Below are positions 18,114-34,069 of a stretch of 34,069 nucleotides of DNA, piece by piece. Source of the DNA: Candidatus Brocadiaceae bacterium (lineage in GTDB: Bacteria; Planctomycetota; Brocadiia; Brocadiales; Brocadiaceae); NCBI GenBank assembly GCA_030650655.1, contig JAUSDH010000198.1, positions 1-34,069 of the forward strand. Reading direction: 5' to 3'. Position 1 is the first letter of the stretch, and every line of letters starts with the position of its first letter. Under the pieces are notes generated by a model that searched no databases, was not told the DNA's origin, and saw only the letters and a program-made list of their open reading frames with translations. A program made the position numbers and the translations under genes.

Positions 18114-18149
18114 GAATAAAAAGTTTACCCACTTACGGGAGATTTATTG

Positions 18150-20174
18150 ATGAACAAATGCATCTATGCATCGATTCTTGTTTTGTTTGCAATTGGTTGT
18201 AAAGAAACCCAAATAAAGCAGTCTGATTTTGTTCCATTCAAAAAACCAGTAACACTTTCTACAACAACTGAGGCGGTAGAGAAAAAACCCTGGGAATATG
18301 AAATCTCACCGAAAAAAGAGGTTATAGAGAAAAAGGAGGGTATACCGGATGAATTTGTATATCCAGAGGAACACAAAAAACCTGAACCCTCTCTTCAAAA
18401 ACCTGAATATACAGGCGATAAAATCGATGTCGCATTAAATTTCGATAACGCAGAAATAAAGGATGTTTTACAGGTTATTTTAGGTGAGATTCTTAATGTA
18501 AACTATATTTTAGATAAAAGAGTCGGAGGTACAATCAATCTTCATGCCACTGGGCAGGTCTATAAAGAAGAACTCCTTTCGATGCTCAACACATTACTCT
18601 TTGTGTATGATTTTGCAATAATAAAGGACGGTGATTTATATAGAATACTTCCTAAAGCAGAATCCAGACAGGAAACAAATATTGTTATTTCCGGGGACAA
18701 AATTCCCCCCTGGAGTAAAGATATAATGATTCAAATAGTTCCTCTGCAATACGAAAACCCAAAGAATTTGAATGCTACTATAAAACCATTTATGACTGGG
18801 ATTGGAAATATAGTTACTCACGGCGACTCTCCCTATATCATACTCATCGAATCAGCCTCAAACATGGAAAAACTGCTTACCTTAGTGAAAACCTTCGATG
18901 TCCCGTTTTTTGCCGGTAAAGCCGTGAAATTTTATGATTTCAAATATGTCGATGCAAGAAATATGGCAAAAGATCTTGCCGCTATAGCACAATCGATGGG
19001 AGGAAAGGCAGGTGGTGAGGGTGAATTTAACTTCGTACCCTTTTCTGACAGTAATAAGATGTTAGTTGTTACCAAAGTACCAGAACTTTTACCAAAAATC
19101 GACCTTTGGATAAAAAATGTAGATGTTCCTCCGTCAGTGTTAGAAGAGGAGACAAAAGTGTATGTATATAAAGTGCAACATCAAAAAGCCGAAACGATTG
19201 TGCCTGTTCTAACACAAATTTACAATGAAAAAATGGCTGCGCAACCTAAACCGCTGGGGAAGAAACAGCTTGAGGCAATGAAGATCGTTGCTGATGCAAA
19301 AACAAATACCATTGTCGTTAAGGCATTGCCGAGTGATTATAGGAGTATTAAAGCGATTATAGAGGCTATAGACGCAACTCCTCAACAAGTATTTATCGAA
19401 GTACTGATTTTAGAGGTCGATCTTAATAATAACTTGGACTATGGGGCACAGTGGGCATTGAACATGGGCAGTGTAAAATTACGGGGAATAACTGACTCTC
19501 AAAGTGGTAAAGTTACAACTACTGCTGGTACGCCATTTCTCAAGTTTACTAAAGGAAACTTTGAAATTCTGATGGATATTCTTGCAACAAATTCTAAGGC
19601 AAAGATATTATCGGCTCCCCATATCCTTGTGAGAGACGAACAGCCTGCAAGCATACAAGTGGGAAACGAAGTCCCTATTCTTTCTAGCTCCGGCCAACAA
19701 ACAGGTACCACGGTCACGTTTCAGCAAGTACAGTACCGTGATACGGGTATCATCCTTACGGTAACTCCTCATATTGGAGAAAATGATTTTGTAACATTAG
19801 AAATAAAACAAGAGGTAAGCAATGCCGAAACAACAACTACAGGAGTTAGTGATTCACCGACCTTTAGTACCCGCAAAGCAGGAACGTCTCTTGTAATAAA
19901 GAGTGGACATACCGTAAGTCTGGGTGGAATTATCGAACAAAGAAATGAAAAAAGTGTTAGTAAAATACCCATTTTGGGGGACATACCTTATTTGGGGAAT
20001 TTATTTAAAACTACCTCAATTGCCAATAGAAGAACAGAACTGATTATGTTAATAACCCCCTATATTGCAAACGATGCGGAAGATGCAGATTCTTTGACCA
20101 ACGCATTTCAAAAGAAGCTGAAGGAAATTGAGCCACTAATAACCCAAAGGGTGAATGAAGTTGAGAAATATTAA
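18150..20174 (+). CDS. gspD: GspD, type II secretion secretin (outer membrane channel)
   Basis: GspD forms the multimeric outer membrane gate of the T2SS. The 674-residue protein has a short hydrophobic signal ending AIGC with Cys17, so it may be a lipoprotein (Ala rather than Leu at -3 is a weak lipobox). A Pro/Lys/Glu-rich linker (about 25-88) follows, then an N0-type domain (about 90-170) and N1-N3-type domains (about 190-420). The secretin domain ends with VPILSSSGQQTGTTV, YRDTGIILTVTPHI, SGHTVSLGGII and KIPILGDIPYLGNLF, the secretin signature. ATG 18150 is 8 nt after GGAG (18138-18141); a TTG just before it is less likely. It heads the operon and overlaps the next gene by 20 nt. Confidence 0.95.
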   Translation: MNKCIYASILVLFAIGCKETQIKQSDFVPFKKPVTLSTTTEAVEKKPWEYEISPKKEVIEKKEGIPDEFVYPEEHKKPEPSLQKPEYTGDKIDVALNFDNAEIKDVLQVILGEILNVNYILDKRVGGTINLHATGQVYKEELLSMLNTLLFVYDFAIIKDGDLYRILPKAESRQETNIVISGDKIPPWSKDIMIQIVPLQYENPKNLNATIKPFMTGIGNIVTHGDSPYIILIESASNMEKLLTLVKTFDVPFFAGKAVKFYDFKYVDARNMAKDLAAIAQSMGGKAGGEGEFNFVPFSDSNKMLVVTKVPELLPKIDLWIKNVDVPPSVLEEETKVYVYKVQHQKAETIVPVLTQIYNEKMAAQPKPLGKKQLEAMKIVADAKTNTIVVKALPSDYRSIKAIIEAIDATPQQVFIEVLILEVDLNNNLDYGAQWALNMGSVKLRGITDSQSGKVTTTAGTPFLKFTKGNFEILMDILATNSKAKILSAPHILVRDEQPASIQVGNEVPILSSSGQQTGTTVTFQQVQYRDTGIILTVTPHIGENDFVTLEIKQEVSNAETTTTGVSDSPTFSTRKAGTSLVIKSGHTVSLGGIIEQRNEKSVSKIPILGDIPYLGNLFKTTSIANRRTELIMLITPYIANDAEDADSLTNAFQKKLKEIEPLITQRVNEVEKY

Positions 20175-20772
20175 AGTTGTGAATAAAAACGGCGTTACCC
20201 CAGTAGAAAGAAAGCTGCTCCATTTATGGTGGGGTGAAAGAAACAGAAAGTTTGAATGTGGTTTGAGATCCTATCCAAACTTTCAAACGGGGTTTACCAT
20301 CCTTGAAGTTATGGTCGCACTGGCAATCATGGGAATTTCTATTGGTATTTTCTTTGGTTTGGTTGGGAATTCTTCAAAATTAAGAGGAAAGATTGACGAG
20401 CACACAAAAATAGTGCTTCTTGCAAGAACCAAAACAGAAGAGGCTTTTCTGGGAATACTTGGTAAAAAATATGCGAAATTGAATGAGGAAAAGACCTTTG
20501 AAGGCGTGACGAAAGACGGTGTTCAATGGAAAATATCGCAGGTAGATAAATATAAAGAAGCCAGGAAAAAAATCACTATGGATGCATCAAATGAAGATGA
20601 AAGCGATGTAGAACTTCCACCCAAAGGAACTACAATGCTGAGCACACACGTTGAAGGAATAAATATCAACACCATTTTTTTCGTTGAAGAATCAGAAGAA
20701 GATGAAAACGATACTGAAGGATCGGTTGAAGAAAATGACGGTGGAAAATCTGGGAAAGAAATGGATGATTAA
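20155..20772 (+). CDS. gspI: GspI-like minor pseudopilin with an acidic tail
   Basis: A 205-residue pseudopilin. The prepilin site is TG-FTILEVMVALAIMG: cleavage after G46, Glu5 at E51. EVMVALAI is typical of GspI, and the order D-I-J-K supports this; GspH is the alternative. From ATG 20155 the leader would be 46 residues, unusually long, and overlaps gspD by 20 nt; an in-frame TTG about 9 codons before the cleavage site would give a normal leader but lacks a good ribosome site. The C terminus (about 178-205) is a strongly acidic tail rich in Glu, Asp, Asn and Gly, not usual for GspI. Minor pseudopilins I, J and K form the tip of the pseudopilus. Confidence 0.78.
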   Translation: MKLRNIKVVNKNGVTPVERKLLHLWWGERNRKFECGLRSYPNFQTGFTILEVMVALAIMGISIGIFFGLVGNSSKLRGKIDEHTKIVLLARTKTEEAFLGILGKKYAKLNEEKTFEGVTKDGVQWKISQVDKYKEARKKITMDASNEDESDVELPPKGTTMLSTHVEGININTIFFVEESEEDENDTEGSVEENDGGKSGKEMDD

Positions 20773-21505
20773 ACACAAAGAGGGTTTTACGTTATTTGAA
20801 CTACTTATAGCCCTTTTTATAGGTACAATTTTGATTATGTCAGGTGCTTACGCAATAAGAACAGGTTTGTTCTCGATGGAAAGAGAAGAGGCGTGGTTTA
20901 ATGACACAACAAAAGAAAAAGCCGCCTTCGACTTTTTCTGGCAACAGGTATCCTCATTACGTGTTCAAAAGATCCCAAGAAAGGATACCCTCCTTACCGA
21001 GGAAAACAAAACGACCAAAAAAAAGAAAACCAATTACTTCGCAGGTGAAAAAGATTTTCTTTCCTTTGTGTCCCCTCTTTCTTTTAAAAAACATTATGGA
21101 CAAGGATTGATAATAGCTAATTATAAAGTAAAATTAAATGGTAACGGCTTGTGGGATCTAATTTACATGGAAACCAGGGTTACCCCCACAATACTCATTA
21201 AATTATCTGAAGAATCTGAAAGCACATTAAATACGGATAAGGATTACACGATATTCCTTAAGGATTTTGATATGATTTCATACGCGTATCTTGACACAGT
21301 GGAAGAGGAAACCGATAATGAGGAAGAAGTCCAGGTAGCCACTCTAGATGCCGATGTTATTGAAGGTACTGATTTAAAATGGAAAGAAAAAATAGCACAG
21401 AAAATCCCGCAGGCGATAAAGTTGTCGGTTACAAAAAATGGAAAGGCACAAGAGCTTATATCACCAATCATGGCTACGTACTCATTTTTAGCCTCTGGGC
21501 AATAG
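20765..21505 (+). CDS. gspJ: GspJ-like minor pseudopilin
   Basis: A 246-residue pseudopilin from ATG 20765, with a six-residue basic leader, cleavage after G7 (KEG-FTLFELLIALFIG) and Glu5 at E12. The start overlaps the gspI stop by 8 nt; in-frame ATGs upstream (20684, 20735) would put the leader inside gspI and are less likely. The body matches GspJ in outline: a Trp/Phe-rich helix after the membrane segment, then the closing PQAIKLSVTKNG...SPIM strand pair. A Lys-rich loop (TEENKTTKKKKTN) is inserted around residue 80. GspJ binds GspI and GspK at the pseudopilus tip. Its last 127 nt are also read by gspK in another frame. Confidence 0.8.
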   Translation: MIKHKEGFTLFELLIALFIGTILIMSGAYAIRTGLFSMEREEAWFNDTTKEKAAFDFFWQQVSSLRVQKIPRKDTLLTEENKTTKKKKTNYFAGEKDFLSFVSPLSFKKHYGQGLIIANYKVKLNGNGLWDLIYMETRVTPTILIKLSEESESTLNTDKDYTIFLKDFDMISYAYLDTVEEETDNEEEVQVATLDADVIEGTDLKWKEKIAQKIPQAIKLSVTKNGKAQELISPIMATYSFLASGQ

Positions 21506-22440
21506 TAATCTTTGGGTTTATTGCGCTAAGTTTTACCCGGAATACTGGAATTGCTATAAAAACAGAAATTACTTCTACGGAACGCGTGAAAAATGTTTAC
21601 GCAGCGCGGGGAGCTTGTATTTATGCCACACAGATGCTGATGTTGCCGAAAAAACATGAAAAAGAAACCAAAGGCGGTAAAATCAAAAAATTGAAAAAGA
21701 ACAGAGATCGGGATGCAAGTAAAAAAGACAGAAACAGCGATCCCTGGACGCCAAGCAGTGATCCATACTCAGTACAAGTAGGCGACAGGAATTGTGATGT
21801 ATTTATCAGCGATGAAAGTGGAAAAATTAATGTAAATAAACTAACGGAAGATACAAGAGATAGTTTTATTAAATTTCTAATTGCTTATAAACTAGAAGAG
21901 CTTGCAGCACAGACTATAACAGACTCTATACTAGACTGGCTCGATGAAGATGATTTACATCATGTTAACGGCGCAGAAAAAGACTATTATGCAACACTGC
22001 CAGAGCCCTATGAGCCAAAGAACGGGTCGTTTGAATCTATAGAAGAATTGACCTTAATTAAAGGAATTACCCCACAAATATTTGAATTGCTACGAGATCA
22101 CCTGACGATTTACGGATCAGGCAAAATTAATGTCAACTTTGCATCTAAGGAAGTTCTTCTTTGTGTATCTGCAATTACCGAAGAAATAGCTAAGGCAATA
22201 ATTTACTACAGGGGAAAAAAAGGGAAAATTGCAAAAATTGATGATTTAAAAGAAATCTTTAGATACTTTGGCATTATCGGCGCAGATTTCCAAAAGATTA
22301 TGAATTATTTAACCGTATACGACTCAAACTATATGACGATCAATTCAATTTCTTCGTCAGACAAAATAAAAAATTCCTATAAAATAGTTGTTTTCAAAAG
22401 TGTGGATCATTGTAGAAGTATTGCGGCATATCCTGAATAG
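21379..22440 (+). CDS. gspK: GspK-like minor pseudopilin (tip protein)
   Basis: GspK caps the pseudopilus and typically lacks Glu5. Here the site is TNHG-YVLIFSLWAIVIFG: cleavage after G32, and residue 5 of the mature chain is Phe37, not Glu, as expected. The 353-residue protein then has a Lys/Arg-rich insert (about 92-117), SGKINVNKL, ILDWLDEDD, the PYEPKNGSFESIEEL block common in GspK, and a helix-hairpin-helix-like INVNFASKEVLLCVSAI...IYYRGKKG. No ATG/GTG/TTG exists in frame between 21379 and the membrane helix, so the start at 21379 and the 127-nt overlap with gspJ look real. Leader residues are encoded wholly inside gspJ. Confidence 0.85.
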   Translation: MERKNSTENPAGDKVVGYKKWKGTRAYITNHGYVLIFSLWAIVIFGFIALSFTRNTGIAIKTEITSTERVKNVYAARGACIYATQMLMLPKKHEKETKGGKIKKLKKNRDRDASKKDRNSDPWTPSSDPYSVQVGDRNCDVFISDESGKINVNKLTEDTRDSFIKFLIAYKLEELAAQTITDSILDWLDEDDLHHVNGAEKDYYATLPEPYEPKNGSFESIEELTLIKGITPQIFELLRDHLTIYGSGKINVNFASKEVLLCVSAITEEIAKAIIYYRGKKGKIAKIDDLKEIFRYFGIIGADFQKIMNYLTVYDSNYMTINSISSSDKIKNSYKIVVFKSVDHCRSIAAYPE

Positions 22441-22459
22441 TATTTAATATATTGTCATT

Positions 22460-23725
22460 ATGAATAAAATACCGTTCGTCAATTTATTTTCCCAAAGTTC
22501 AACTGGCTTGTCTATCAATGGGAATGACCTTATTATAACAATTGTTAGCAAAAAACTGGTTAAATATTCACACGAGACGCTCAAGATAGAAGATTTTATG
22601 CTTAAGGATACCCTGCAATTAAAACATGCACTAATACAGAAAAAGAAATTTGTGGGAGAAACTATCCTTTCCTTACCAAGGGAACTTGCTATTATCAGAG
22701 AAACAACTTGTCCATATTCGAACTTGAAAGAATTAAGAGAAGCACTCAGATACCAATTGGATAGTTTTATTCCTTTCAGCAATGAAGACGTTTATTTTGA
22801 TATTCATTCATTATCACAAAATAGACACGACACGAAAATCCTGATTGTTGCAATAAAGAAAACGGAATTGGATAATATTCTATCAAAATTGAAAGCCCTT
22901 GAAATTGTTCCTTCTCGAGTTATTATTTCACCTTTCGCCTTTCTTCCTATCCTTGAGGAAAGAAAAGGTTCGGTCGTAGTAGTTAGTAAAAACATAAACA
23001 ATTATAGTTATAATGTATTTGAAAATAACCATTTGGTTTTATCTTCGATTGCAAAAAATGAGGTTGAATTAACTAATCAGATTAAATCAAGGCACACTGA
23101 TGAAATACTGTTAACACATGTTACCGATGGATTTTTGCCAGATGCATACAAAACTCGTTATCAATTGTTAGATGATAATTCTGAATCCTATGGAGCAGCA
23201 CTTTACGGTTTAGCTGAATATCCATGCTATTTGAGTCTTGTTAAATCACATAAAAAGCGGCTAAATCCCCAAGTTGTATTAATATGTTTTCTTATCGGTA
23301 TTTTGATATTTTTCTCGTTCCTTATTCCTTACATACAGAAGATAAATAATCTGGCAATACTAAAAACAGTAAATACACAAGTTAAATCAATAAAAAAAGA
23401 CGTTGTAATCGTTGAGAAACTACAAGAACGCATAGTAGTGTTAGATGAAGTCGTTAACAAGGTCAATGCTATAAGAGGAAAATATATTCCCAGGATTGAC
23501 GTGATCCTCGAGTTGGCAAAGACGTTACCTAATGACGCCTGGGCAAAGGGCATTACAATCATGGACAATGCATTTGAAATAGAGGGAGATGCTGTATCCT
23601 CGACGAATTTGGTACCAATTTTAGAGAATTCTCCTGTTTTGTCAGGCGTGGGTTTAACTTCTCCCGTAACAAAAACACAGAGTGGCAGAGAAAAATTTAG
23701 AATTAAAGGAAATATCGAAAAATAG
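22460..23725 (+). CDS. gspL: GspL-like inner membrane platform protein (PilM-PilN type)
   Basis: The 421-residue protein has a cytoplasmic actin-like (PilM/GspL) domain (about 1-260), with the GETILSLPRELAIIRETTCP and LREALRYQLDSFIPF blocks typical of PilM/GspL, one membrane segment (about 271-292), and a periplasmic PilN-like part with a coiled coil (about 300-350) and a small ferredoxin-like domain (WAKGITIMDNAFEIEGDA). GspL recruits the GspE ATPase to the membrane in known systems. Start ATG 22460 lacks a clear ribosome site and follows gspK by 19 nt. It is the expected gene before gspM. Confidence 0.85.
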   Translation: MNKIPFVNLFSQSSTGLSINGNDLIITIVSKKLVKYSHETLKIEDFMLKDTLQLKHALIQKKKFVGETILSLPRELAIIRETTCPYSNLKELREALRYQLDSFIPFSNEDVYFDIHSLSQNRHDTKILIVAIKKTELDNILSKLKALEIVPSRVIISPFAFLPILEERKGSVVVVSKNINNYSYNVFENNHLVLSSIAKNEVELTNQIKSRHTDEILLTHVTDGFLPDAYKTRYQLLDDNSESYGAALYGLAEYPCYLSLVKSHKKRLNPQVVLICFLIGILIFFSFLIPYIQKINNLAILKTVNTQVKSIKKDVVIVEKLQERIVVLDEVVNKVNAIRGKYIPRIDVILELAKTLPNDAWAKGITIMDNAFEIEGDAVSSTNLVPILENSPVLSGVGLTSPVTKTQSGREKFRIKGNIEK

Positions 23726-23730
23726 GGAAT

Positions 23731-24333
23731 ATGGGACGATTCTTAGAACTATTTTACAGACTCAAAATAAGAGAAAGGATACTGTTGGTTGTTGCCCTTA
23801 TTGTTCTCTTGTATATGAGTCTTGATAGGGTTGTGATTACACCCTTTTTTAAATCAATTAATGAAACAAAAGAGCGATTAGAGACTCAAAAGAAACTGCT
23901 TATGAAATATTATTCATTTGCAGCTAATAAAAAACAATATGAGACCAGGCTGGTTGAACTGGAACAATATTATGCAAAACTTCAGGAAAAATTCCTGTCA
24001 GAAGAAACGGAAGAACTTGCCTCTGCAAAATTACAGGAAATGATAAATAATCTGGCTACGAAGAATGGATTAGTTGTGTCCAGAAGTACGGCATTAAAAA
24101 AAGAGGTAATTAACAAAAAACCATATCTTATTGCCATGTCAATTAATTTCGAAATAAGTGATTTAGATAGTTCTCAAAAACTTCAAAATTTTCTTTACGA
24201 TATAGAATACAATAACGGCAAACTACTTTTTATCGATAATTTGCGAATAAAAACCTTAGGTCTAAATGTTGTAAAAGGGGCGACAATTTCTTCTACCTTA
24301 ACGGCAATTGCCTCTATTGGAAAGAAGTTGTAA
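23731..24333 (+). CDS. gspM: GspM-like inner membrane protein (PilO type)
   Basis: A 200-residue bitopic protein: cytoplasmic N terminus, membrane helix at about 17-31, a long coiled coil (about 38-95) and a C-terminal ferredoxin-like domain (about 105-200). This is the GspM/PilO layout. GspM pairs with GspL in the assembly platform. It starts 5 nt after gspL and is followed 5 nt later by the GspC-like gene. Sequence conservation in this family is low, so topology and gene order carry the call. Confidence 0.8.
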   Translation: MGRFLELFYRLKIRERILLVVALIVLLYMSLDRVVITPFFKSINETKERLETQKKLLMKYYSFAANKKQYETRLVELEQYYAKLQEKFLSEETEELASAKLQEMINNLATKNGLVVSRSTALKKEVINKKPYLIAMSINFEISDLDSSQKLQNFLYDIEYNNGKLLFIDNLRIKTLGLNVVKGATISSTLTAIASIGKKL

Positions 24334-24338
24334 CGTAT

Positions 24339-24968
24339 ATGAAGCCTATTAACATTAATACGAAATCGTTACAGTTTTTTATAGGAACATTTGGTAAAAA
24401 AATAAAGCAATGGAAACACTACTTACCCATAATAAATTTAGCTTTTCTGATAGGAGTAGCTTGCCTGGCAATCACTTGTGTGCTGTTAGTTTATCACCCT
24501 CCTGAAAACATAACGAAACCAGAAAAGCAGGGAGAAGAAACCCTGGGAAAGAAAAATTCATTACCTCCTCTGTCCCCGAATGCTAAAACGACAGATTACT
24601 ATGAACTCATACTGTCAAATAACCCTTTTTCTCCCAATCGCACCGCCTGGAACCCCCCAGAAACAAAAACGGATTCCAAACATGAAGAAGGCGCCGCGCA
24701 AGCAGATGCACAAACAGCAGAAAATCAACAAAAACCAAAGGGCACTCCTAAAAAGATTACTTTACGAGGTATCATGATTCTTGGAGATACCAGAAAGGCA
24801 TTAATAGAAAATCCCGATAAAACAAAAAATAAAAATAATTTTATTTTTATCGAAGAAGGCGAAGAGGTTGCAGAATACAAGGTAAAAAATATAGAACAAG
24901 ATCAAGTAAAACTTGATTGGTACGGGGAAGAACATATTGTTATTATGAGATCCAACATTAAAAAATAG
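24339..24968 (+). CDS. gspC: GspC/PilP-like inner membrane protein
   Basis: The 209-residue protein has a cytoplasmic end, one membrane helix (about 30-52), a Pro/Lys/Gln/Glu-rich linker with the short SNNPFSPNR segment, and a C-terminal beta domain (about 139-207, ITLRGIMILGDTRKALIENP then EEGEEVAEYKVKNIEQDQVKL) matching the GspC homology region / PilP fold. This domain contacts the secretin N0 domain in known systems and bridges the two membranes. GspC is usually at the operon front; here it lies between gspM and gspF. It lacks a PDZ or coiled-coil end. Confidence 0.78.
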   Translation: MKPININTKSLQFFIGTFGKKIKQWKHYLPIINLAFLIGVACLAITCVLLVYHPPENITKPEKQGEETLGKKNSLPPLSPNAKTTDYYELILSNNPFSPNRTAWNPPETKTDSKHEEGAAQADAQTAENQQKPKGTPKKITLRGIMILGDTRKALIENPDKTKNKNNFIFIEEGEEVAEYKVKNIEQDQVKLDWYGEEHIVIMRSNIKK

Positions 24969-24974
24969 CTATTT

Positions 24975-26177
24975 ATGAGTACTTTTAAATATAAGTTATT
25001 AACGACATCCAGTGGCATTCTTGAAGGGGAAAAAGAGGCAATCAGTAAATTAGAACTGATTAATGATCTCCGCAAATCTGGTCATGTCATTTTGAATATT
25101 CAACAAGTAGATAAGAATAAGAAATTTGGAATATCTTTCAATCGTGTAAACAAGAAAGCCGTTTTACCTTTCACACAAGAATTAGCAACACTGCTTGAAG
25201 GCGGTATTCCCATTGACAAAAGCATGTCTATTTTATTATCAGGGCAGGATAATAACACAATTAAAAATGTTGTTGAAGATTTGCTGAATAGGATTAAATC
25301 CGGAAAATCCTTTGCTGAAGCACTCGCAAACCATACCAAACTATTCACCGGTGTTTACATAAACATGGTACGTGCAGGAGAAGAGGGTGGAGTATTACCA
25401 CAAGTACTTAAGAGGCTGGGGGCGTTTCAGGAACGCATACAAAAAGTCAGGGGTGAAATTATCTCTGCAATGATTTATCCACTCCTGTTAAGCAGTACTG
25501 GTCTCGTGTCAGTGGGTGCACTCATTGTCTATGTTATCCCTAAATTCTCTCAGATATTTGAGGGAATGGGAATTTCCCTTCCTTTTTCGACTATGATGCT
25601 CATGGGTATGAGCCGATACTCCATTAGATACGGCTGGATTTCTATTATTGTCGCCGGAATCGCATTCTTTTTGTATAAAAAAGCGATGAAGGATAAGAAA
25701 ACATCAATAAAAATAGATCAAAAAAAGTTAAAATTACCACTCATTGGTAATCTTCTATGGAAAATGCAAATATCCAGATTTGCGAGAACGCTCGGTACAT
25801 TGCTAGAAAACGGGGTACCGCTGCTTAAATCAATGGATATCGTTAAAGATGTGCTATCCAATCAATATCTTGCTGACATTCTCAGTGATGTAAAGTCTAA
25901 TGTGAAAGAAGGGGCGAGCCTTACAGTTTCACTCGCACAAAAAGGATTTCTACCAGAAATTGCTGTCCACTTATTAAAAGTAGGCGAAGAAACAGGGAAG
26001 TTGGATCAAATGCTCCTTAAAGTTGCAGATAATTTTGATGCCGACACGGAACAGCGAATGAAGCGACTGGTAACTATGGTAGAACCCTTACTTATATTGC
26101 TCATGGGTGCTGTCATCGGTGTAATTGTAATCTCTATGCTAACGGCAATCCTTAGTGTAAACGATCTACGATTTTAA
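24975..26177 (+). CDS. gspF: GspF, polytopic inner membrane protein of T2SS
   Basis: GspF is the integral platform protein on which the ATPase acts. The 400-residue protein has two T2SSF repeats (about 65-190 and 265-390), each with the family pattern (FTQELATLLEGGIPIDKSM and FARTLGTLLENGVPLLKSM), the AGEEGGVLPQVLKRLG / VGEETGKLDQMLLKVA motif, and three membrane segments (about 167-192, 218-238, 370-392). It is the last gene of the operon. No gspE or gspG follows: the window continues with a repeat and a sugar transferase. Confidence 0.96.
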   Translation: MSTFKYKLLTTSSGILEGEKEAISKLELINDLRKSGHVILNIQQVDKNKKFGISFNRVNKKAVLPFTQELATLLEGGIPIDKSMSILLSGQDNNTIKNVVEDLLNRIKSGKSFAEALANHTKLFTGVYINMVRAGEEGGVLPQVLKRLGAFQERIQKVRGEIISAMIYPLLLSSTGLVSVGALIVYVIPKFSQIFEGMGISLPFSTMMLMGMSRYSIRYGWISIIVAGIAFFLYKKAMKDKKTSIKIDQKKLKLPLIGNLLWKMQISRFARTLGTLLENGVPLLKSMDIVKDVLSNQYLADILSDVKSNVKEGASLTVSLAQKGFLPEIAVHLLKVGEETGKLDQMLLKVADNFDADTEQRMKRLVTMVEPLLILLMGAVIGVIVISMLTAILSVNDLRF

Positions 26178-26291: not shown

Positions 26292-27020
26292 ATGAAAGAA
26301 TGTTTCCTATCAGTAATAATTCCTGCCTATAACGAGGAGAAAAGGTTATTACCTACCCTTCGCAAGATTTGTGCGTATCTCTCCGCAAAAGACTTTCCTT
26401 GCGAAATTATTATAGTGGATGATGGCTCTACGGATAACACCTTACAAATGATAAAGAATTTTGCAAGTTCAAACAACCACTTGGTCATTTTGACAAATGA
26501 ACAGAACATCGGCAAAGGTTATTCAGTGCGAAAAGGCATGTTGTCCGCACGGGGTGAATACGCTTTCTTTACTGATGCAGACCTTTCCACCCCTATTGAG
26601 GAAATAGACAAATGCCTGCCGTACCTTCTAAATGGTTACGATGTGGTCATCGGATCAAGGAGTATGCCCGGCGCAGATATTATTGTTCATCAACCGTGGT
26701 ACAGGGAAAAGATGGGGAAGATATTTAATTTCATGGTAAATATGGTTTTGCTGAAAGGGATAATTGACACACAGTGCGGATTTAAAGGATTCAAAAGAGA
26801 GGCAGTTAAAACGATTTTTAGCAAATGTAAAATCGATGGATTTTCATTTGATGTGGAAGCTCTTTATTTATCACGAAAGTATAATTTCAAGATCAAGGAA
26901 ATCCCTATTCGCTGGGAAAACTCTACATTAAGTAAGGTCAGCCCTATAAAACACTCCCTTCAAATGTTCAAAGACCTGATAGGAATAAAAATTAAAGATT
27001 TAAAAGGCGATTATAAGTGA
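26292..27020 (+). CDS. Family 2 glycosyltransferase, ALG5/DPM1-like polyprenyl-phosphate sugar synthase
   Basis: The 242-residue soluble GT-A protein begins LSVIIPAYNEEKRL, then IIIVDDGSTDNT (D43-D44), GKGYSVRKGML, and the metal-binding FFTDADLSTPIEEI (D95-A-D97), followed by VVIGSRSM and DTQCGFKGFKR. DADLSTP and QCGFK patterns are typical of dolichyl-phosphate glucosyltransferase (ALG5)-like enzymes, which load a sugar from a nucleotide donor onto a polyprenyl phosphate. Such lipid-linked sugars feed GT-C enzymes, and two GT-C-like genes lie next to it on the opposite strand. It has no C-terminal membrane anchor, unlike eukaryotic ALG5 with its N-terminal helix. Sugar specificity is not readable. 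Confidence 0.9.
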   Translation: MKECFLSVIIPAYNEEKRLLPTLRKICAYLSAKDFPCEIIIVDDGSTDNTLQMIKNFASSNNHLVILTNEQNIGKGYSVRKGMLSARGEYAFFTDADLSTPIEEIDKCLPYLLNGYDVVIGSRSMPGADIIVHQPWYREKMGKIFNFMVNMVLLKGIIDTQCGFKGFKREAVKTIFSKCKIDGFSFDVEALYLSRKYNFKIKEIPIRWENSTLSKVSPIKHSLQMFKDLIGIKIKDLKGDYK

Positions 27021-27022
27021 TG

Positions 27023-29035
27023 TCATTTTTTATGAAATAGGACATGAACCGGAACAAGCGCTTCGCTTCCACCAGGCGGCGTCCATAAAAATTCCATAAC
27101 GGCCCCTCCTCCTCCGTCGAAATATTTAACTCTGACATGACGGAATCCCTCGTCAAGGGACACAACCCCGGAAATATGCCGCATTGCATGAAGGTCGTCA
27201 TTGTCTACGACCAGGTTCCCATCGATATAAACAACGGAACCATCATCCGATTTTGTCGCAAATTGATAGACTCCCTTTTGTGTTATGTGTAGATATCCTT
27301 CCCACTCAATACCAAAGGGAGATCTGTAGGGTTTTTGTGTTTCATCATTATAGGTAAAGGAAATAGCCTTATTTTCCACCTTGGATAAAAAAGGTGTTCC
27401 TATACATTCAATGTTGTAATAATATTTCCCTGATAAACCTGATTCTAGTTCATCCTTTGAGACTTTGGTAATTGGCAGTGCTGCAGCCTTTGACTCCGCT
27501 TCTTTACCATATACGGCGTTATACAGACCTTCTTGTATATAAGCTACAAGCCATACACCCGGTCGGAATACAAACCGCTCTTTCTTGTAGTTTCCCTTTA
27601 ATTTTTCCTTTAGTTTGTTTTCTCCACTCTTATCAACCAGGATAACTGGGGCATTGGGATTATCAATAACGTTGCCCCAGAACTTTGCATTTTTATACTC
27701 TCTGAAATACCAGGGTAATGGCCAATATTCTTTAGAAACAATATTGATTTCCATATTCTTGCCACAAGAGTTTGAGAGTGATTTCATTCTGTCTAATAAA
27801 TTAAAAACATCTCGTTTGGTCTGAACATAAACAAGTTCGTATCGTTCATCGTCGTAATTTATAAAATTTAACATAATGGACTGATAACAAATGAAACCAA
27901 AAATACAGATATAGATTGGATAAAAAATGGCGTAGTGCCATCTTTTTTTTAGTATTCCAAATATGCCATTTACAAAAATCCCGGCCAGAATGGAGAATGG
28001 AAGTATGATGTTCAAAATCAACCACGGCGTCTTGTATGGTATTAAGGAATAAATGATGTAGACAAGAATTGCCCATAGTGAAACGAATACGGTGAATTTG
28101 TTCCTGCGCCGGAATGCATAATAAAATCCAGCGATTCCAAGCACAAGAATAGGAAGTTCAAACTTATACAGCACCTTAAAATAATAAATAAAAGGCTTGG
28201 CATGGCCGCCTTTGTCGTGCATGCCCGTTTTCGACCATATCGCAAGGGTGGTCAAAATACCATGGATACCTTTATAATAGGTAAGAAAAGAGGAATAAAA
28301 CAGAAAATTGATAAGCAGGAATATTCCCACACTGATGACAATGGCATATTTATATTTCCTGCAATCACTCGCAAAGGCGCTGAATATCCCTTTAAAGTAG
28401 GGTAATCGTGAACCCTTTGATAAGGAAACCATCTCGTACAAATATGCAATTGCTAAAGATATTGCATAAATGATAAAGGTAATGATATATGTTTCTTTTA
28501 TGGTAACAACGCTTGCAATACTTGCCGCTGCAAAATAGATATACCTTGATTTCCTCGTTTCAGAGTAAAGAAAAAAGGAGACAACAACGGCGAGTGAAAA
28601 GAAGACGAAATAGGTTTCATGGATGGTATCCCTCGAAAAAAAAGAATTTGCCGGAGAAATGGCAATAAGCAATCCCGTTGTCAGTAAACCCATTTTGCCG
28701 ATTCTTCTTCGTAAAGGATACAACAATGCAACCACCATAATGCCAAACAGTATCGGCATAAGCCTGAATGAAAAATCTGAGATACCGAGAATATAAAAAG
28801 GAATTAATCCAATATAATAGAGGAATGGTCCGTGATAATTGGAGGGATCATAGTGGTAATAATTATTATTATATAAATTCAACAAGAAAAAACTATTTAC
28901 CCCCTCGTCCGAATGAAGAGGTCTGAGGCCAACGTCCCAAAAACGAATTAATGATGCAATGAAAATGGGCACAAAAAAAGCGATGAGTAATTGAATTCTC
29001 AGCTTATGCTGTTCTTCTCTAGATTCCATTGACAT
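27023..29035 (-). CDS. Agl23/TIGR03663-like GT-C membrane protein with C-terminal PA14 domain
   Basis: The 670-residue protein has about ten membrane segments in residues 15-400, preceded in the first loop by HSDEGVNSFF (acidic pair D43-E44, the GT-C catalytic position). NYHGPFLYYIGLIPFYILG and FFSRDTIHETYFVFF match TIGR03663/Agl23 family proteins, which in archaea are linked to protein glycosylation. Residues 534-670 form a PA14 domain: IEWEGYLHI, TKSDDGSVVYIDG with D597-D598, HAMRHISG, KYFDGGGGAVMEFLW. PA14 lectins bind sugar through a Ca2+ held by such a DD pair. The fusion suggests the enzyme recognises glycan outside the membrane. It is convergent with the GT2 gene (2-nt gap). Confidence 0.85.
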   Translation of the reverse strand: MSMESREEQHKLRIQLLIAFFVPIFIASLIRFWDVGLRPLHSDEGVNSFFLLNLYNNNYYHYDPSNYHGPFLYYIGLIPFYILGISDFSFRLMPILFGIMVVALLYPLRRRIGKMGLLTTGLLIAISPANSFFSRDTIHETYFVFFSLAVVVSFFLYSETRKSRYIYFAAASIASVVTIKETYIITFIIYAISLAIAYLYEMVSLSKGSRLPYFKGIFSAFASDCRKYKYAIVISVGIFLLINFLFYSSFLTYYKGIHGILTTLAIWSKTGMHDKGGHAKPFIYYFKVLYKFELPILVLGIAGFYYAFRRRNKFTVFVSLWAILVYIIYSLIPYKTPWLILNIILPFSILAGIFVNGIFGILKKRWHYAIFYPIYICIFGFICYQSIMLNFINYDDERYELVYVQTKRDVFNLLDRMKSLSNSCGKNMEINIVSKEYWPLPWYFREYKNAKFWGNVIDNPNAPVILVDKSGENKLKEKLKGNYKKERFVFRPGVWLVAYIQEGLYNAVYGKEAESKAAALPITKVSKDELESGLSGKYYYNIECIGTPFLSKVENKAISFTYNDETQKPYRSPFGIEWEGYLHITQKGVYQFATKSDDGSVVYIDGNLVVDNDDLHAMRHISGVVSLDEGFRHVRVKYFDGGGGAVMEFLWTPPGGSEALVPVHVLFHKK

Positions 29036-29119
29036 GGAACATTTTCCCCCTTTTTATCTTTAAAAATCTTTATTCGCAATTCAGCTTTATAAATAAGTTA
29101 AGTATTTAAGATGCCTATG

Positions 29120-29216
29120 GGAACCACAGATTGCACAGATTTCACAGATAAAAATAGAAACGATCTGCGGGATCGCATTGCCATAAATCTGTGTAATCTG
29201 CGAAATCTGTGGTTCC
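29120..29216. repeat. Long palindromic intergenic repeat with 9-bp internal period
   Basis: Left arm 29120-29149 and right arm 29187-29216 pair at 27 of 30 positions. Each arm contains three CAGAT/ATCTG units exactly 9 bp apart (29127, 29136, 29145; 29187, 29196, 29205). The 37-nt loop holds a second small hairpin, CGATC-tgcgg-GATCG (29161-29175). Element lies between two PA14-GT-C genes, 85 nt upstream of the first's ATG. No transposase is nearby. Confidence 0.85.
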
Positions 29217-29248
29217 AAACGTTTTTATTGGCCTGCGTCTATATCACG

Positions 29249-31654
29249 CTAGTCCTTTACCATTAATCTGTCTACCGGTATCTTTGATTCTCTGCCATTC
29301 GGTGGCAACCACAACAGGCTGAGCATCGCCCCGCCTCCGGCATCAAAATATTTGATCATTATTTTGTGTTTGCCGGGTTCTAAATTAACCATACCTGTTA
29401 CAGATTTCATCGCATGGTTGCCACCGTTGTCTACCACCAAAATATCATTTATGTAAAGCCATGAGCCATCATCTGAGGTTAACTTGAATGTATACTTACC
29501 CGGCGTGTTAATATCGATAAAACCTTTCCATAGAGCGCTAAAAGGGCTTGACACCGGCTTTTCATCTTCGTTCGACCAATTGAATCCTATATGTTCATTA
29601 ACATCTTGAAAAACAGACTCGTCTTGCCAATTGGCATTATCGTAATACCAAACACATAAACCGTATGTTTTGTCAGTCAAATCTTGCTTATTAGTTACGG
29701 TAGAATATTCATTTGATAAGGCAAGGGAATCCTTTTTTTGGGTAAGGTCGTAAACTTTATAGCTTTTCGTTGTTATAACACGGGTAAAGTTTGCATCAAA
29801 AAATTTACTGATTGCACCAATCCGCTTTTCGTGTGGACCAATCGTTACGTAGCTTGGCTTGTATTTATCTATGAGTGATTTTGCGTTTGGTTCGCCTTTC
29901 AGCATTATTTTTACATCCTGTTCCCTTTGATAAGACCCTTGATAACCGTGACTCCATATATGGCCAGGGAAACCCATCAATGTCTTTCTCCCAGACAAAA
30001 ACACAAGGTGGTTATGGACAGGCGCATTTAAGAATAGTGCTTCTGCGGGAGTTTCCATAGAGATACGTTTTGCAAGTTCTATTTCCTCTACAGAAAATTC
30101 CTTTGAGCCGCCAACAGGCGCTATTGCATACTTAAAAATATCAATTGCCCCTGAAATGGTTAAAAAAACCATAATTATGAAAAAGCCTATTCTTGAAAGA
30201 ATTTTGTACCGCCTGCTTTCATATAAGCAAGTCATAGCAAACGCCGCTATTGGTGTAACACCGAGAAACCAATAGATTAATATTTTTATATTATCCCAAT
30301 TCCACGGTGCAAAAAGTATCAGATTTGGCAGTAGAAAAAGTATTAAAAATGGCAGTACATAAAATCCCAACCGTAGGGGCGAACGGCCATTCTTCCTGAC
30401 AAAAATGACTACAAATCCACCGATAAGCACTGGCCAAAAAAGACTCGTATTCTTTAGCCAGAACCACAGAAAATTTTCCTTACCCGCCATCCATCCAAAA
30501 TTGGATTTGAAAAAACTTCCACCGCCCACGTGTCCGGAAAGATAGAGCACCTGCGGTAACGACAGGATAAAGGCAGGCATAAAAAACAGAAACCACTTGC
30601 GCCAGTCCCAAAATATAAGTCCTAATGGTATGGTGACCATCAGCACGGCCAGGAAACTGTGTGAGTGGAAGAACGGCAGTACGCCGGCAAGAACTCCTGC
30701 AAAGAGAAATTCTCTCCACTTTTTATGTTCGATGCCCGTATAAAGAAGGGTAAAGATTAACATTGTAATAGGGAAACCAAAGAGAAGTGCGCGCTGTGGC
30801 ACGTTGAGACATGTTAATGGCGTAATCCAGTAATAATTAAGTGGTTCTATTTTTGTGTAATCTCTTGGTAAGTGTGTGAGAAACGACCAGAAACTACCTG
30901 AAGTATGTGAAAGGTCCTGGAAGAAGTAATAAAAGCCAAACCCTCCGGTAAAAAAAAAGATAAATACAGAAATTATCGCAGCAAATCTTCTTTTCGTTAG
31001 ACGATAGGTAAAGTAATAGAGTATACAATAAAAAGCAACGGTTAAGAGAAGACCGGGAATAAACAGCATGTCTCTAAAATCTAAACCTAGCTTAAGAAAG
31101 ACGGCAGATAGAAAATCGGCTAGGAAGGGATAGACCAGTTTCTCACCCGCAAACGACGGATCCTGAGGAGGTATGTTATTTCCCCACACGAAAGAGGTAA
31201 TATATGCCAGATGCAGCGGCAGGTCGCCGTAATTATTTGTTAAACCGACATACATCCCATCCTTCTTCCAGATGATTGTTCTGTAAAACAACCGCCAGAA
31301 TATTGTAGTGAAGAACGAAAACACTGCAATATGGGCAAAATAGGATATCTTGTTCAGAAGGAAATCGGTTTTTATATCAATTGTTTCAGTGGTGATCTTT
31401 TCTTTGAAAGTTGACCATTTGGATATTAAAATTACGGAGCTAACCGCTACAAGTAAGGCAGCAGAGATGTATATGCTTTTACCAGAAAGTCCCCACAGTA
31501 ATGAGAATAGATAAACAATCCATGTGTGCAATCCTAACCCAATAACCGTTCCATACGCAACCCTTTCAAAGATTGAATACCTTGCTGATAGAAAATAGGT
31601 AAGTATAAACCCTGTTATAATTGAAATAATAATAAATGAAACGACTAACGTCAT
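29249..31654 (-). CDS. GT-C-like polytopic membrane protein with C-terminal PA14 domain
   Basis: I do not recognise the exact family of this 801-residue protein. It has about twelve or more membrane segments in residues 1-520. The extracytoplasmic loop NNYGDLPLHLAYITSFVWG with PPQDPSFAGEKLVYPFLADF resembles acceptor/metal loops of GT-C glycosyltransferases (Asp in GDLPLH). A soluble part (about 525-655) follows, then a PA14 domain (about 659-801) with SPFSALWKGFIDI, LTSDDGSWLYIND, HAMKSVTGMVNL and KYFDAGGGAMLSLLW. The PA14 closely resembles those of its two neighbours. AAGG 6 nt before ATG supports the start. It follows hepT by 12 nt, so it could be co-transcribed with the toxin-antitoxin pair. 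Confidence 0.78.
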   Translation of the reverse strand: MTLVVSFIIISIITGFILTYFLSARYSIFERVAYGTVIGLGLHTWIVYLFSLLWGLSGKSIYISAALLVAVSSVILISKWSTFKEKITTETIDIKTDFLLNKISYFAHIAVFSFFTTIFWRLFYRTIIWKKDGMYVGLTNNYGDLPLHLAYITSFVWGNNIPPQDPSFAGEKLVYPFLADFLSAVFLKLGLDFRDMLFIPGLLLTVAFYCILYYFTYRLTKRRFAAIISVFIFFFTGGFGFYYFFQDLSHTSGSFWSFLTHLPRDYTKIEPLNYYWITPLTCLNVPQRALLFGFPITMLIFTLLYTGIEHKKWREFLFAGVLAGVLPFFHSHSFLAVLMVTIPLGLIFWDWRKWFLFFMPAFILSLPQVLYLSGHVGGGSFFKSNFGWMAGKENFLWFWLKNTSLFWPVLIGGFVVIFVRKNGRSPLRLGFYVLPFLILFLLPNLILFAPWNWDNIKILIYWFLGVTPIAAFAMTCLYESRRYKILSRIGFFIIMVFLTISGAIDIFKYAIAPVGGSKEFSVEEIELAKRISMETPAEALFLNAPVHNHLVFLSGRKTLMGFPGHIWSHGYQGSYQREQDVKIMLKGEPNAKSLIDKYKPSYVTIGPHEKRIGAISKFFDANFTRVITTKSYKVYDLTQKKDSLALSNEYSTVTNKQDLTDKTYGLCVWYYDNANWQDESVFQDVNEHIGFNWSNEDEKPVSSPFSALWKGFIDINTPGKYTFKLTSDDGSWLYINDILVVDNGGNHAMKSVTGMVNLEPGKHKIMIKYFDAGGGAMLSLLWLPPNGRESKIPVDRLMVKD

Positions 31655-31666
31655 GGATACCTTATT

Positions 31667-32101
31667 CTAAACTTTTTCTTTTTCTCTTTTTAAAATCGAA
31701 TCAATTATTTTCAGTATAATGTCTTTACTATCAACATACGTTTTTATTGCCTGCCATCGGAAGTTGAGATACCTATGTGCAAGGCGATTTCTTTGAACGG
31801 CCAGTTTTGATAAACATTCCTGTTCTCCTGTAGATAATCCGAGAAGTTTGCTACACAAAGCAAGCGCTTCTCCGTAATTTTCCACTCCTATACCTTCTTG
31901 TACAAGCACCGTTCCGCAAACTTCTATTAAGGCTGTGAGAATGTTCTCGACGGTTTTATCCATTAATTTTTGTAATTTTTTGTCCTCTTGATAATTATTA
32001 AACTTCTTACTAGCGTATTCCGACTCAAATTCCTTAATTTCCCCCGTAATAAATTGAAGAGATTCCTCGATCCTGCCTCTGGCATAATTAAATTCAGGCA
32101 T
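31667..32101 (-). CDS. hepT: HepT-like HEPN toxin of an MntA/HepT module
   Basis: The 144-residue all-helical protein carries the HEPN active-site motif R-X4-H-X-Y: R104-NRLA-H109-R-Y111. HepT proteins are ribonuclease-type toxins; the partner MntA neutralises them by adding AMP units to the Tyr of this motif. The gene's ATG overlaps the mntA stop by 8 nt, the standard arrangement. The motif is intact, so an active toxin is predicted. Downstream, 12 nt away, is a PA14 glycosyltransferase-like gene. Confidence 0.88.
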   Translation of the reverse strand: MPEFNYARGRIEESLQFITGEIKEFESEYASKKFNNYQEDKKLQKLMDKTVENILTALIEVCGTVLVQEGIGVENYGEALALCSKLLGLSTGEQECLSKLAVQRNRLAHRYLNFRWQAIKTYVDSKDIILKIIDSILKREKEKV

Positions 32102-32540
32102 GTTTTATATCCTCCAGGTTCTTCTTCGCAATCTCTAATTGCCACTTGGTACCAAAAAGAGTAAAATCTTCCATTTGGAATATCGCTTGATTTCTTAAGG
32201 AGGTATACCTATCCTGGTTTCCAATAAAAACAGGCATACCCAATACAATGGCATTGTAATAAAGCATGGGCTTCCTGAAATCAGAATAGATTGGGAGAAC
32301 ATTCACATCTAATTTCAATCTCTTGCCAAGAACAAGAGATATATCTGTTATGATCGTAAATGCTTCATCCTCAGTACCGGGTTCTTCCGAAAATACAATA
32401 GCAATGTCTACATCGGAAAAACTTTTAGGGAGCCCCCGCGCCCATGAGCCATAGAGAAATGCCATTTCAATTTTATAAACCGGCGCCGATTCCTCAAAAA
32501 ATGCTTTAAGCAAGGCTAATATTTCTGGTTTCGTGTGCAT
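32094..32540 (-). CDS. mntA: MntA-like minimal nucleotidyltransferase antitoxin
   Basis: The 148-residue protein has the minimal nucleotidyltransferase motif GSX10DXD: G31-S32, then D43-V-D45, in YGSWARGLPKSFSDVDIAI. LDVNVLPIYS further on fits the third catalytic acid. In known MntA/HepT pairs it AMPylates HepT and blocks its RNase activity. It is the first gene of the reverse-strand unit mntA-hepT-GT-C. A small inverted repeat upstream (32604-32621) might be an autoregulatory operator. Confidence 0.88.
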   Translation of the reverse strand: MHTKPEILALLKAFFEESAPVYKIEMAFLYGSWARGLPKSFSDVDIAIVFSEEPGTEDEAFTIITDISLVLGKRLKLDVNVLPIYSDFRKPMLYYNAIVLGMPVFIGNQDRYTSLRNQAIFQMEDFTLFGTKWQLEIAKKNLEDIKHA

Positions 32541-32603
32541 ATATTTTTCTACAAAGCCATATAAATCGTTTGATTATTTACAAACAATATATATTATATT
32601 AAC

Positions 32604-32621
32604 ATTGTTTTGAATAACAAT
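32604..32621. promoter_or_regulatory. Small inverted repeat in the divergent mntA spacer
   Basis: ATTGTT-ttgaat-AACAAT is a perfect 6-bp dyad with a 6-nt centre, in the AT-rich spacer between mntA (leftward) and the PA14 gene (rightward). Toxin-antitoxin operons often self-regulate at such dyads. In AT-rich DNA this could be chance. Confidence 0.3.
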
Positions 32622-32663
32622 AGTGAATTTAAATTGCCTTTGCTATCTAGAGGTATATCGTAA

Positions 32664-34069
32664 ATCTATAACTCACCATTCTCAAAATCAAAAGGCCTCT
32701 TAATAACCCTTCTCATTATCCTGTTAATAGGAGGCATATACACAGGCATCAAACTATTGTTGCCCAGTCATGGATTGACTGGATACTACCTGTATCTTCC
32801 CGAAGAAGAAAATATACCCCTTCGCCCGATTGATATATCTTTATCAGAAACACATCCCTGCCTCAAAAAAAGGATTTATGAAGGAAACCCAAAAGGTTCT
32901 CTCATAGAAGAAACAACAGAAAAAATGCCAATAAATATTGAATGGCATTCTGATGATAATAAATCTTACCAATCTCCCTTTACCATTGAATGGGATGGTT
33001 TTTTAAAAATACAGCATCGCCGAAATTATACCTTTATATTAGGCTCCGACGATGGATCAGCACTGTTCCTCAATGGTAAGCTGATCGTCGATAATGGTGG
33101 GACTCACGGGCTTGAAGAAAAAACACAAATGCTATTCCTTGAGCCTGGGTTTTATCGGTTTCATTTAACATACTTTGATCAGGGTGGCGGTGCTGTGTTA
33201 TACCTCAAGTGGAAGTATTCAGATGTAGACGGAACATTAATCCCTACCTCTCAATTCTACCAGGAAACAACAACCCAGGATTTACACACGATCGATATCA
33301 CGACACCTTATACTTTGAAAATTGAACCCAATGACACCATTAATAAATCTTATGTCGTATTCAGAAAAAACGATCCCACCCTATCATTTAATAATTACGG
33401 AATACTCAGGACATATTATGTGAACTATTGGGATAATTACCGTTTTGAACCTCCCCCAGATATTCCCAACTATAACATCCTTTGGAGGGGATCTATTTGG
33501 ATACCAAAAGACGGCGAGTATACATTTAAAGTTAACACGAATGGTAATAATGTGCTTTTATTTATAGATGCACAAGCTGTTTTAAAATACCGTACTGGAG
33601 GTGATTCTGAAGTACAAATTCATTTAAAAAAGGGATGGAAACCTATCCAAATCAATTATTTTAATCAGGCAAAGTACGCTACCCTAAATTTGTTTTGGCA
33701 AAAGCCGGGTGATAGCAAGCTTTCGAACATTTCTTCACGGTATTTAATGCCTGCCGAGGACATAGGGGTCTTTGGTAGCGCTAAAGTGTGGTGTGCAATA
33801 GGATTTATTATTGCATCCCTATCTATTTGTCTTAGTTTCTTTCTCGTATTTAGAAATGTAATAAAAAATCGCATTTATGAATACTTTGCGTATGTAAACC
33901 AAAATTGGTCTATAGTTGCCTTGATTCTCATTGTTATTCTTGGTGCTACTTTGCGGCTTAAGGATTATAGTGTAGTTCCACCCCATGGAGATACCATGGA
34001 TGTTTATCAAGAGGCATGGAATGGTTATCATATTCTCCATGGTGATGGGCCTAAATCGTGGGAATATTT
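32664..34069 (+). CDS. Membrane protein with two PA14-type domains followed by a GT-C glycosyltransferase start (partial, start codon unclear)
   Basis: An open frame of 468 codons runs off the right edge. It begins with a membrane helix (about 12-35, LLITLLIILLIGG), then a PA14 domain (from GLTGYYLYLP; IEWDGFLKI, LGSDDGSALFLNG, YFDQGGGAVLYLKW), a second weaker PA14-like domain (about 240-365; LRTYYVNYWDNY, WRGSIWIPKDGEYTFKVN, WKPIQINYFN), a membrane helix near 375-395, and a helix plus loop with the GT-C pattern LRLKDYSVVPPHGDTMDVY. The frame opens at an ATC just after an in-frame TAA; no ATG/GTG/TTG precedes the helix. AGAGG (32649-32653) lies 10 nt before that ATC. The first TTG (32757) would remove most of the helix. 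Possible non-standard start, mutation or base error. Confidence 0.75.
   Translation, partial: MYNSPFSKSKGLLITLLIILLIGGIYTGIKLLLPSHGLTGYYLYLPEEENIPLRPIDISLSETHPCLKKRIYEGNPKGSLIEETTEKMPINIEWHSDDNKSYQSPFTIEWDGFLKIQHRRNYTFILGSDDGSALFLNGKLIVDNGGTHGLEEKTQMLFLEPGFYRFHLTYFDQGGGAVLYLKWKYSDVDGTLIPTSQFYQETTTQDLHTIDITTPYTLKIEPNDTINKSYVVFRKNDPTLSFNNYGILRTYYVNYWDNYRFEPPPDIPNYNILWRGSIWIPKDGEYTFKVNTNGNNVLLFIDAQAVLKYRTGGDSEVQIHLKKGWKPIQINYFNQAKYATLNLFWQKPGDSKLSNISSRYLMPAEDIGVFGSAKVWCAIGFIIASLSICLSFFLVFRNVIKNRIYEYFAYVNQNWSIVALILIVILGATLRLKDYSVVPPHGDTMDVYQEAWNGYHILHGDGPKSWEY

Follow-up and report, generated by a model that had tools for sequence, protein, structure and literature searches.

A gene cluster at the right end of the DNA studied here probably encodes an extracytoplasmic, polyprenyl-P-sugar-dependent three-component glycosylation system, the enzymes of which would be tethered to their glycan by a shared lectin cassette. 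The window, that is, the whole stretch of 34,069 nucleotides that was analysed, is one whole contig (G000:C205) of an anammox-group genome. Three PA14-bearing membrane proteins, termed A, B and C, are encoded at 27023-34069, with a polyprenyl-phosphate-sugar synthase (GT2) alongside at 26292-27020. The genes at this end are ordered GT2 (+), A (-), B (-), a HEPN/MNT pair (-) and C (+), the last of which is cut by the contig end. The features are the following:

26292..27020, + strand: GT2, a soluble polyprenyl-phosphate sugar synthase of the ALG5/DPM/ArnC type, the donor-charging enzyme by family (Pfam PF00535, 117 bits).
27023..29035, - strand: A, 670 aa, an Agl23-type (TIGR03663) GT-C core followed by a C-terminal PA14 (TIGR03663 and PA14 profile matches).
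27026..27475, - strand: PA14 of A, with SDDGS and YFDGGGGA as Ca2+/sugar-site residues.
28904..28909, - strand: D43-E44 of A, the candidate catalytic acid pair (HSDEG) in the first outer loop, from conservation.
29249..31654, - strand: B, 801 aa, a GT-C core without a Pfam family followed by a C-terminal PA14 (PA14 78 bits; structure model).
29255..29698, - strand: PA14 of B, aligned residue by residue to MhPA14 (6m8m).
31223..31225, - strand: D144 of B, the candidate catalytic Asp in the outer loop NNYGDLPLH, from conservation.
31667-32540, - strand: HEPN/MNT (HepT/MntA-like) toxin-antitoxin pair between B and C (Pfam/NCBIfam).
32664..34069, + strand: C, incomplete, with a probable ATC start, an N-terminal signal anchor, two PA14s and the start of a PMT_2-type GT-C core, as read from full orthologues.
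32829..33269, + strand: PA14-1 of C (C1), with an intact Ca2+ site (SDDGS and YFDQGGGA).
33468..33737, + strand: PA14-2 of C (C2), degenerate, with NG where DD is expected.

The initial annotation had described three polytopic proteins carrying PA14 domains, C-terminal in two of them and doubled at the N terminus of the third, and profile searches bear this out: the PA14s of A, B and C all score above the Pfam gathering cut-off (56-83 bits against 24, or 32-59 bits above it), A and B have one C-terminal PA14 each, and C has two N-terminal PA14s, followed in full orthologues by the GT-C core. The polyprenyl-phosphate sugar synthase that had been placed beside the trio was likewise recovered, both by PF00535 and by the best solved-structure relatives of GT2, which are the polyprenyl-phosphate glycosyltransferases ArnC and DPMS and then sll0501. 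A putative three-component system was recognised here by the presence of a polyprenyl-P-sugar synthase and GT-C proteins in one cluster; both are found, and A is the only flippase candidate seen among them. Directly before GT2 ends a run of T2SS/type IV pilus-like genes (18147-26177; secretin, pseudopilins, GspK, PilM/N-like, GspM and GspF).

All three proteins belong to the GT-C superfamily, as the initial annotation had proposed, A by TIGR03663 and fold, B by fold and C by PMT_2. A scores 255.7 bits with TIGR03663 (cut-off 126), 35.8 bits with PMT_2 and 56.5 bits with PA14, it is related to ArnT by sequence profile (E 1.6e-4), and its structure model (pLDDT 82.6) matches the folds of ArnT (TM 0.57 by target), ALG12 (0.65), PMT4 (0.56) and PA14 lectins. 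The core of B matched no Pfam or NCBIfam family and had no sequence-level match to A, C or the PDB; its model (pLDDT 89.9) is matched by Foldseek to DPY19, STT3, PglB, AftD and AftA as well as to PA14 lectins, the GT-C matches having E-values of about 3e-7 to 3e-5, a prob of 1.0 and a best TM of 0.54 by target. TM-scores for the GT-C fold matches as a whole are moderate, at about 0.3-0.65. Full orthologues of C (829-900 aa) consist of a signal anchor, two PA14s and then a PMT_2/PMT core, for which the full-length orthologue in L054 scores above both cut-offs (PMT_2 39.5 bits, PMT 28.1 bits), and in the window the start of the PMT_2-type core is matched at 33753-34064. The sequence relation between the cores of A and C is weak (67%).

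The initial annotation had named the lack of a catalytic acid in structure models of the GT-C parts as one finding that would speak against it, and at the sequence level candidate acids are conserved in all three proteins. D43/E44 of A is invariant in 15 anammox A proteins and at least 90% conserved in a set of 35 that includes Acidobacteriota; D144 of B is invariant in all 43 homologues, drawn from anammox bacteria, Acidobacteriota, Chloroflexota and others; and D80/D83 of C (alignment A3), in the first outer loop, are invariant or nearly so. The WWDYG motif of STT3/PglB/AglB oligosaccharyltransferases is absent from A and B as read by sequence.

The catalytic loops and the PA14 domains are predicted to share the outer face of the membrane. 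For B this follows from the positive-inside distribution of Lys and Arg, the density of which is 0.28 in the loops alternating with the D144 loop and the C-terminal domain, compared with 0.07, so that both the D144 loop and PA14 are predicted to be outside. The assignment is weaker for A, where the topology script took helix 71-84 for a transmembrane segment and yielded no clear orientation. A juxtamembrane helix is expected in ArnT-type enzymes, and if helix 71-84 is read in this way the DE loop and PA14 would both be outer, with the positive loops inside. It is also weaker than for B in the case of C, whose catalytic loop and PA14s would lie on the same outer face when the sequence is read by hand.

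PA14 was found in 27 of 59 relatives and the same cluster recurs in about 20 of them, so that its association with these enzymes is not a chance one. The neighbourhood survey in Brocadiales suggested by the initial annotation showed the cluster to be kept, with GT2, A and B co-occurring. It is conserved in Brocadiaceae and Anammoxibacter, where A and B are always fused to PA14, and the usual order in Brocadiaceae is T2SS-type genes, GT2, convergent A and then B, with C near in many cases. Within the order, 22 of 62 genomes have the A core, and the B core was found in 20 of these 22 and in no others; in the remaining two, the contig breaks off within B or A. Neither protein was seen without PA14 in these 62 genomes. 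Of the 22 genomes with A, 21 have a close GT2 orthologue (G006 being counted from its own locus), and genomes of the same family that lack A have a single partial copy (G019). Several genomes with both A and B do not have C. A second block, comprising GT2, radical SAM and methyltransferase genes, is often found in these loci.

Outside the order, a scan of one genome per species recovered B-core relatives in Acidobacteriota, Chloroflexota, Dormibacterota, Atribacterota and others, and in Acidobacteriota the B core is followed by an A-core gene of the same strand in almost every locus long enough to show it. Neither the A nor the B homologue carries PA14 in any of the 64 loci from outside the anammox group. 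In the B-core tree the 18 anammox proteins, including those of Anammoxibacter, group together as a single clade (SH-aLRT 100). Most simply, an ancient B-A pair probably acquired PA14 on both of its proteins in the anammox lineage, loss everywhere else being a less simple alternative. Among distinct PA14 proteins of at least 400 aa, none of 66 from other Planctomycetota had five or more predicted transmembrane segments, as against 65 of 73 from anammox loci (Fisher p 4e-31), a p-value that overstates independence because the anammox loci are mutually related and for which some background ORFs were cut at locus ends, the contrast itself being plain. A limited literature search found no account of PA14-GT-C fusions.

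Several other arrangements were seen in these loci. The adjacency of GT2 to the T2SS genes appears to be kept in Brocadiaceae and not in two Anammoxibacter loci. Further PA14-bearing GT-C-like proteins occur, designated D and E, together with fusions of 1167-1336 aa (L053:13300-16803, L054:4821-8327 and L059:5826-9836), which are single proteins with D-like and E cores and one or two PA14s. In the Kuenenia genus group, B carries two tandem C-terminal PA14s (L037:6953-9889 and L038:3743-6577). The B gene of Candidatus Brocadia carolinensis (G029) is interrupted by stops and split over three frames (L043:7966-10394), whereas A reads through in one frame.

Many PA14 domains are not lectins. Asp136, Asp137, Asp181 and the backbone oxygens of Gly183 and Ala185 coordinate the sugar-binding calcium of MhPA14, a Ca2+-dependent lectin (PDB 6m8m; PMC6650083); when B of the window is aligned to this lectin, Asp136-137 fall on SDDGS and Asp181/Gly183 on YFDaGGGA. 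All three Asp residues of the Ca2+ site are found in 21 of 22 A, 22 of 22 B and 12 of 12 C1 domains (55/56 together) and in only 3 of 56 background PA14s from other planctomycetes, a comparison in which the orthologues counted are not independent and many background domains have at the third position a Glu that may also bind calcium. These residues are therefore evidence of a lectin-like Ca2+ site in A, B and C1 and not proof of sugar binding. The same set of three is present in 7 of 7 domains of the E/DE type, in none of 6 of D, where the third residue is Asn, and in none of 11 C2 domains, which also lack the DD pair (0/11). The YF[DE]xGGGA signature likewise separates A, B and C1 (47/56 taken together) from the background (2/56).

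The DD pair, which the initial annotation had taken as the hallmark of a lectin, did not hold up as such. DDGS was considered as proof of lectin function and rejected, given that DDG occurs in 38 of 56 ordinary planctomycete PA14s (SDDGS in 18 of 56) and that the third Asp discriminates better. It is thus the retention of three Asp residues in A, B and C1 that favours a lectin-type Ca2+ site.

The PA14 cores had also been described as near-identical, which overstates the likeness: mean identity is only 39% between A and B and 34% between A and C1. These values nevertheless exceed the 26-29% found to other planctomycete PA14s, and the three groups are closer to one another than to the 56 background domains, the opposite of what had been put forward as grounds for giving up the initial reading. 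In the PA14 tree, A, B and C1 lie on one side of a branch with all others on the other (SH-aLRT 85, not decisive). The PA14s of D and E/DE stand apart from A/B/C1 in the free tree, and a tree that places all of them together is not rejected (p-AU 0.54), so that one origin for all GT-C PA14s is neither shown nor rejected.

Repeated spread of one PA14 cassette, as the initial annotation had suggested, is supported by two cases in which sequence comparison points clearly to PA14 exchange between GT-C genes. In G024, of the genus group that holds Brocadia, a gene termed Bp (L064:9524-11665) adjoins B on the same strand; the cores of the two are 28% identical and their PA14s 72%. The Bp core is not a member of the anammox B clade and branches near Chloroflexota/Atribacterota proteins (support 89 on a long branch, not decisive), whereas its PA14 is nested inside the B PA14 clade, and at the DNA level Bp and B share a single strong match of 413 bp at 78% that begins near the PA14 boundary. 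In 190 orthologous B pairs, PA14 identity is below core identity in all but one (mean 56 versus 69%; maximum excess 3 points), while in every Bp pair PA14 exceeds the core by at least 18 points. The second case is found in G017 (L061), where the PA14 of an E-type GT-C protein adjoining B is of the A type (54% to A), and E-type relatives carry another PA14.

On the proposed mechanism, GT2 would charge polyprenyl phosphate with sugar in the cytoplasm, as its family supports, and the lipid-linked sugar would cross to the outer face, perhaps by way of the Agl23-like A. B and C, and also A if it is a transferase, would then transfer sugars onto an extracytoplasmic glycan or glycoprotein, a reaction suggested by their fold and conserved acids. 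PA14 on the catalytic face may bind sugar through Ca2+, in keeping with its site residues, and hold a shared acceptor glycan near the active site. Priming or chain-length control, which the initial annotation had suggested for the transferase, finds no support here. The lectin would be a common cassette, which probably joined the older B-A pair in the anammox lineage and was later swapped with other GT-C enzymes of the locus, as in the two exchanges. More tentatively, and with some doubt on our part, the cassette might serve as a genetic address label: unrelated GT-C genes would enter one locus and have the resident lectin grafted on by recombination, whereby the enzymes would be directed to the same acceptor glycan, Bp being a case caught in this process.

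A itself may be a lipid-sugar flippase and not a transferase. It would then have Agl23 function, with B and C as the only transferases and the PA14 of A capturing or gating the emerging sugar head group. A belongs to TIGR03663, B-A is an old gene pair, and GT2 with an Agl23-type protein mirrors Agl22/Agl23. Haloarcula Agl23 suppresses the loss of yeast Rft1 and drives translocation of lipid-linked oligosaccharides in liposomes (PMC11182771), which makes this a serious rival; we nonetheless regard it as somewhat unlikely, as A retains the DE pair and the HGP motif, and two transferases, ArnT and ALG12, are among the solved structures nearest to it in fold. Far less probable is that the shared PA14 reflects mere gene conversion between neighbours, with no functional selection. 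The Bp exchange does involve adjacent genes of one locus, but in the anammox order neither A nor B was found without PA14, and since PA14 is less conserved than the core in orthologous B pairs, conversion is not general.

It is also doubtful, although less so than conversion, that PA14 is a structural or protein-protein module which holds A, B and C together as a complex and binds no sugar. The enzymes of one cluster do have one module in common, C2 lacks the Ca2+ residues, and the PA14 of anthrax protective antigen is, to our knowledge, not known as a lectin; against this, three separate PA14 clades retain the three-Asp Ca2+ site known from proven lectins, which few background domains have. 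A reading that we consider unlikely, but less so than such a complex, is that PA14 anchors the enzymes to an outside structural polymer (peptidoglycan, S-layer glycan or secreted polysaccharide), fixing their location with no reading of the acceptor. By sequence, the solved PA14s nearest to the present ones belong to RsgI3-type anti-sigma factors of Clostridium, described as sensors of substrates/biomass; the cluster adjoins T2SS genes and peptidoglycan genes lie on the same contig, peptidoglycan being present in anammox bacteria according to PMC4432595; and the carbohydrate-binding module (CBM) of GT136 is dispensable for activity in the assays used (PMC11127046). The presence of the same cassette on several neighbouring enzymes fits acceptor recognition as well, and sequence cannot separate the two. 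Taken together, we favour the glycosylation system with a shared, glycan-holding lectin cassette.

The proposed system combines parts known from elsewhere. Its PA14s have the fold of the lectins MhPA14/MpPA14, Flo5 and Epa1, and A, B and C1 have the D-cis-D and third-Asp Ca2+ site of MhPA14, but in those lectins the domains belong to adhesins and are not joined to membrane enzymes. The fold of A matches PMT4, and the eukaryotic PMT O-mannosyltransferases resemble the cluster enzymes in being GT-C enzymes with an outer beta domain (MIR), which is, however, a beta-trefoil inserted in a loop, unlike the PA14 of the cluster. The B-A pair of Acidobacteriota, for example in Pyrinomonas methylaliphatogenes K22 (L131), resembles the present pair in its homologous GT-C cores and in their order and strand, but carries no PA14 and has no close GT2 in the loci read. 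Agl22/Agl23 (TIGR03663) of Haloarcula hispanica is similar to A and GT2 in pairing a polytopic Agl23-type protein with a polyprenyl-phosphate-type GT2, a likeness by TIGR03663 family; outside anammox bacteria, PA14 is lacking in those A-core relatives that were examined.

The mycobacterial arabinosyltransferases EmbA/B/C and AftD are, as here, GT-Cs with carbohydrate-binding modules, and the fold of B matches AftD and AftA, but their modules have another fold and we know of no cassette common to unrelated GT-C cores among them. According to PMC11127046, the modules of EmbC and AftD interact with the acceptor polysaccharide. GT-C enzymes with such modules thus include EmbC, AftD and GT136 (PMC11127046, PMC6034362). 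The GT136 pentofuranose system of Citrobacter youngae (PMC11127046) is like the cluster in combining a polyprenyl-P-sugar synthase, a candidate flippase and a GT-C with an outer carbohydrate-binding domain; it differs in that its CBM is Ig-like and not PA14, there is a single GT-C, the flippase is of the MATE family and not Agl23, and the target is the LPS O antigen. GT-C enzymes with acceptor-binding modules have so far been known one by one; if the present reading is true, one lectin module placed on several unrelated GT-Cs, at either end and with visible transfer, would amount to a coordinated surface-glycan machine built by domain grafting.

With regard to the target, the initial annotation had named the S-layer or exported proteins. 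The S-layer of Kuenenia stuttgartiensis bears an O-linked hexasaccharide, and the paper describing this O-glycan names no glycosyltransferase (PMC5088730). In G015, a complete 4.4-Mb genome of the Kuenenia genus group and probably K. stuttgartiensis itself, A, B, C and a close GT2 are all lacking, and a fused D-E-PA14-PA14 protein is found instead. The A-B-C cluster is therefore probably dispensable for the anammox S-layer glycan in general, and the S-layer as its target is not supported. Exported proteins are a reasonable, putative target given the T2SS link. The cluster in any case supplies testable glycosylation-gene candidates for anammox bacteria.

The start of C deserves separate mention. 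The mechanically called ORF begins at a TTG at 32757 (32757-34069, +), and none of ATG, GTG and TTG precedes the signal anchor of C in the window (32649-32666). An ATC at 32664 behind AGAGGT is kept at the same place in all seven orthologues read (the window, L053, L054, L056, L062, L064 and L065), which suggests that C starts at a rare AUC codon.

Among further observations, the HEPN/MNT pair has a counterpart at the same position in L053, with ORFs of near-equal lengths (145 and 148 aa). The sole other PA14 protein found in the genome of the window (L049:3306-4901, 531 aa) has carboxypeptidase-regulatory-like domains and one predicted transmembrane segment. At 7575-9605 of the window, a hybrid histidine kinase with GAF and receiver domains lies between a Mur ligase gene and an mraY-type gene, within a peptidoglycan/division cluster.
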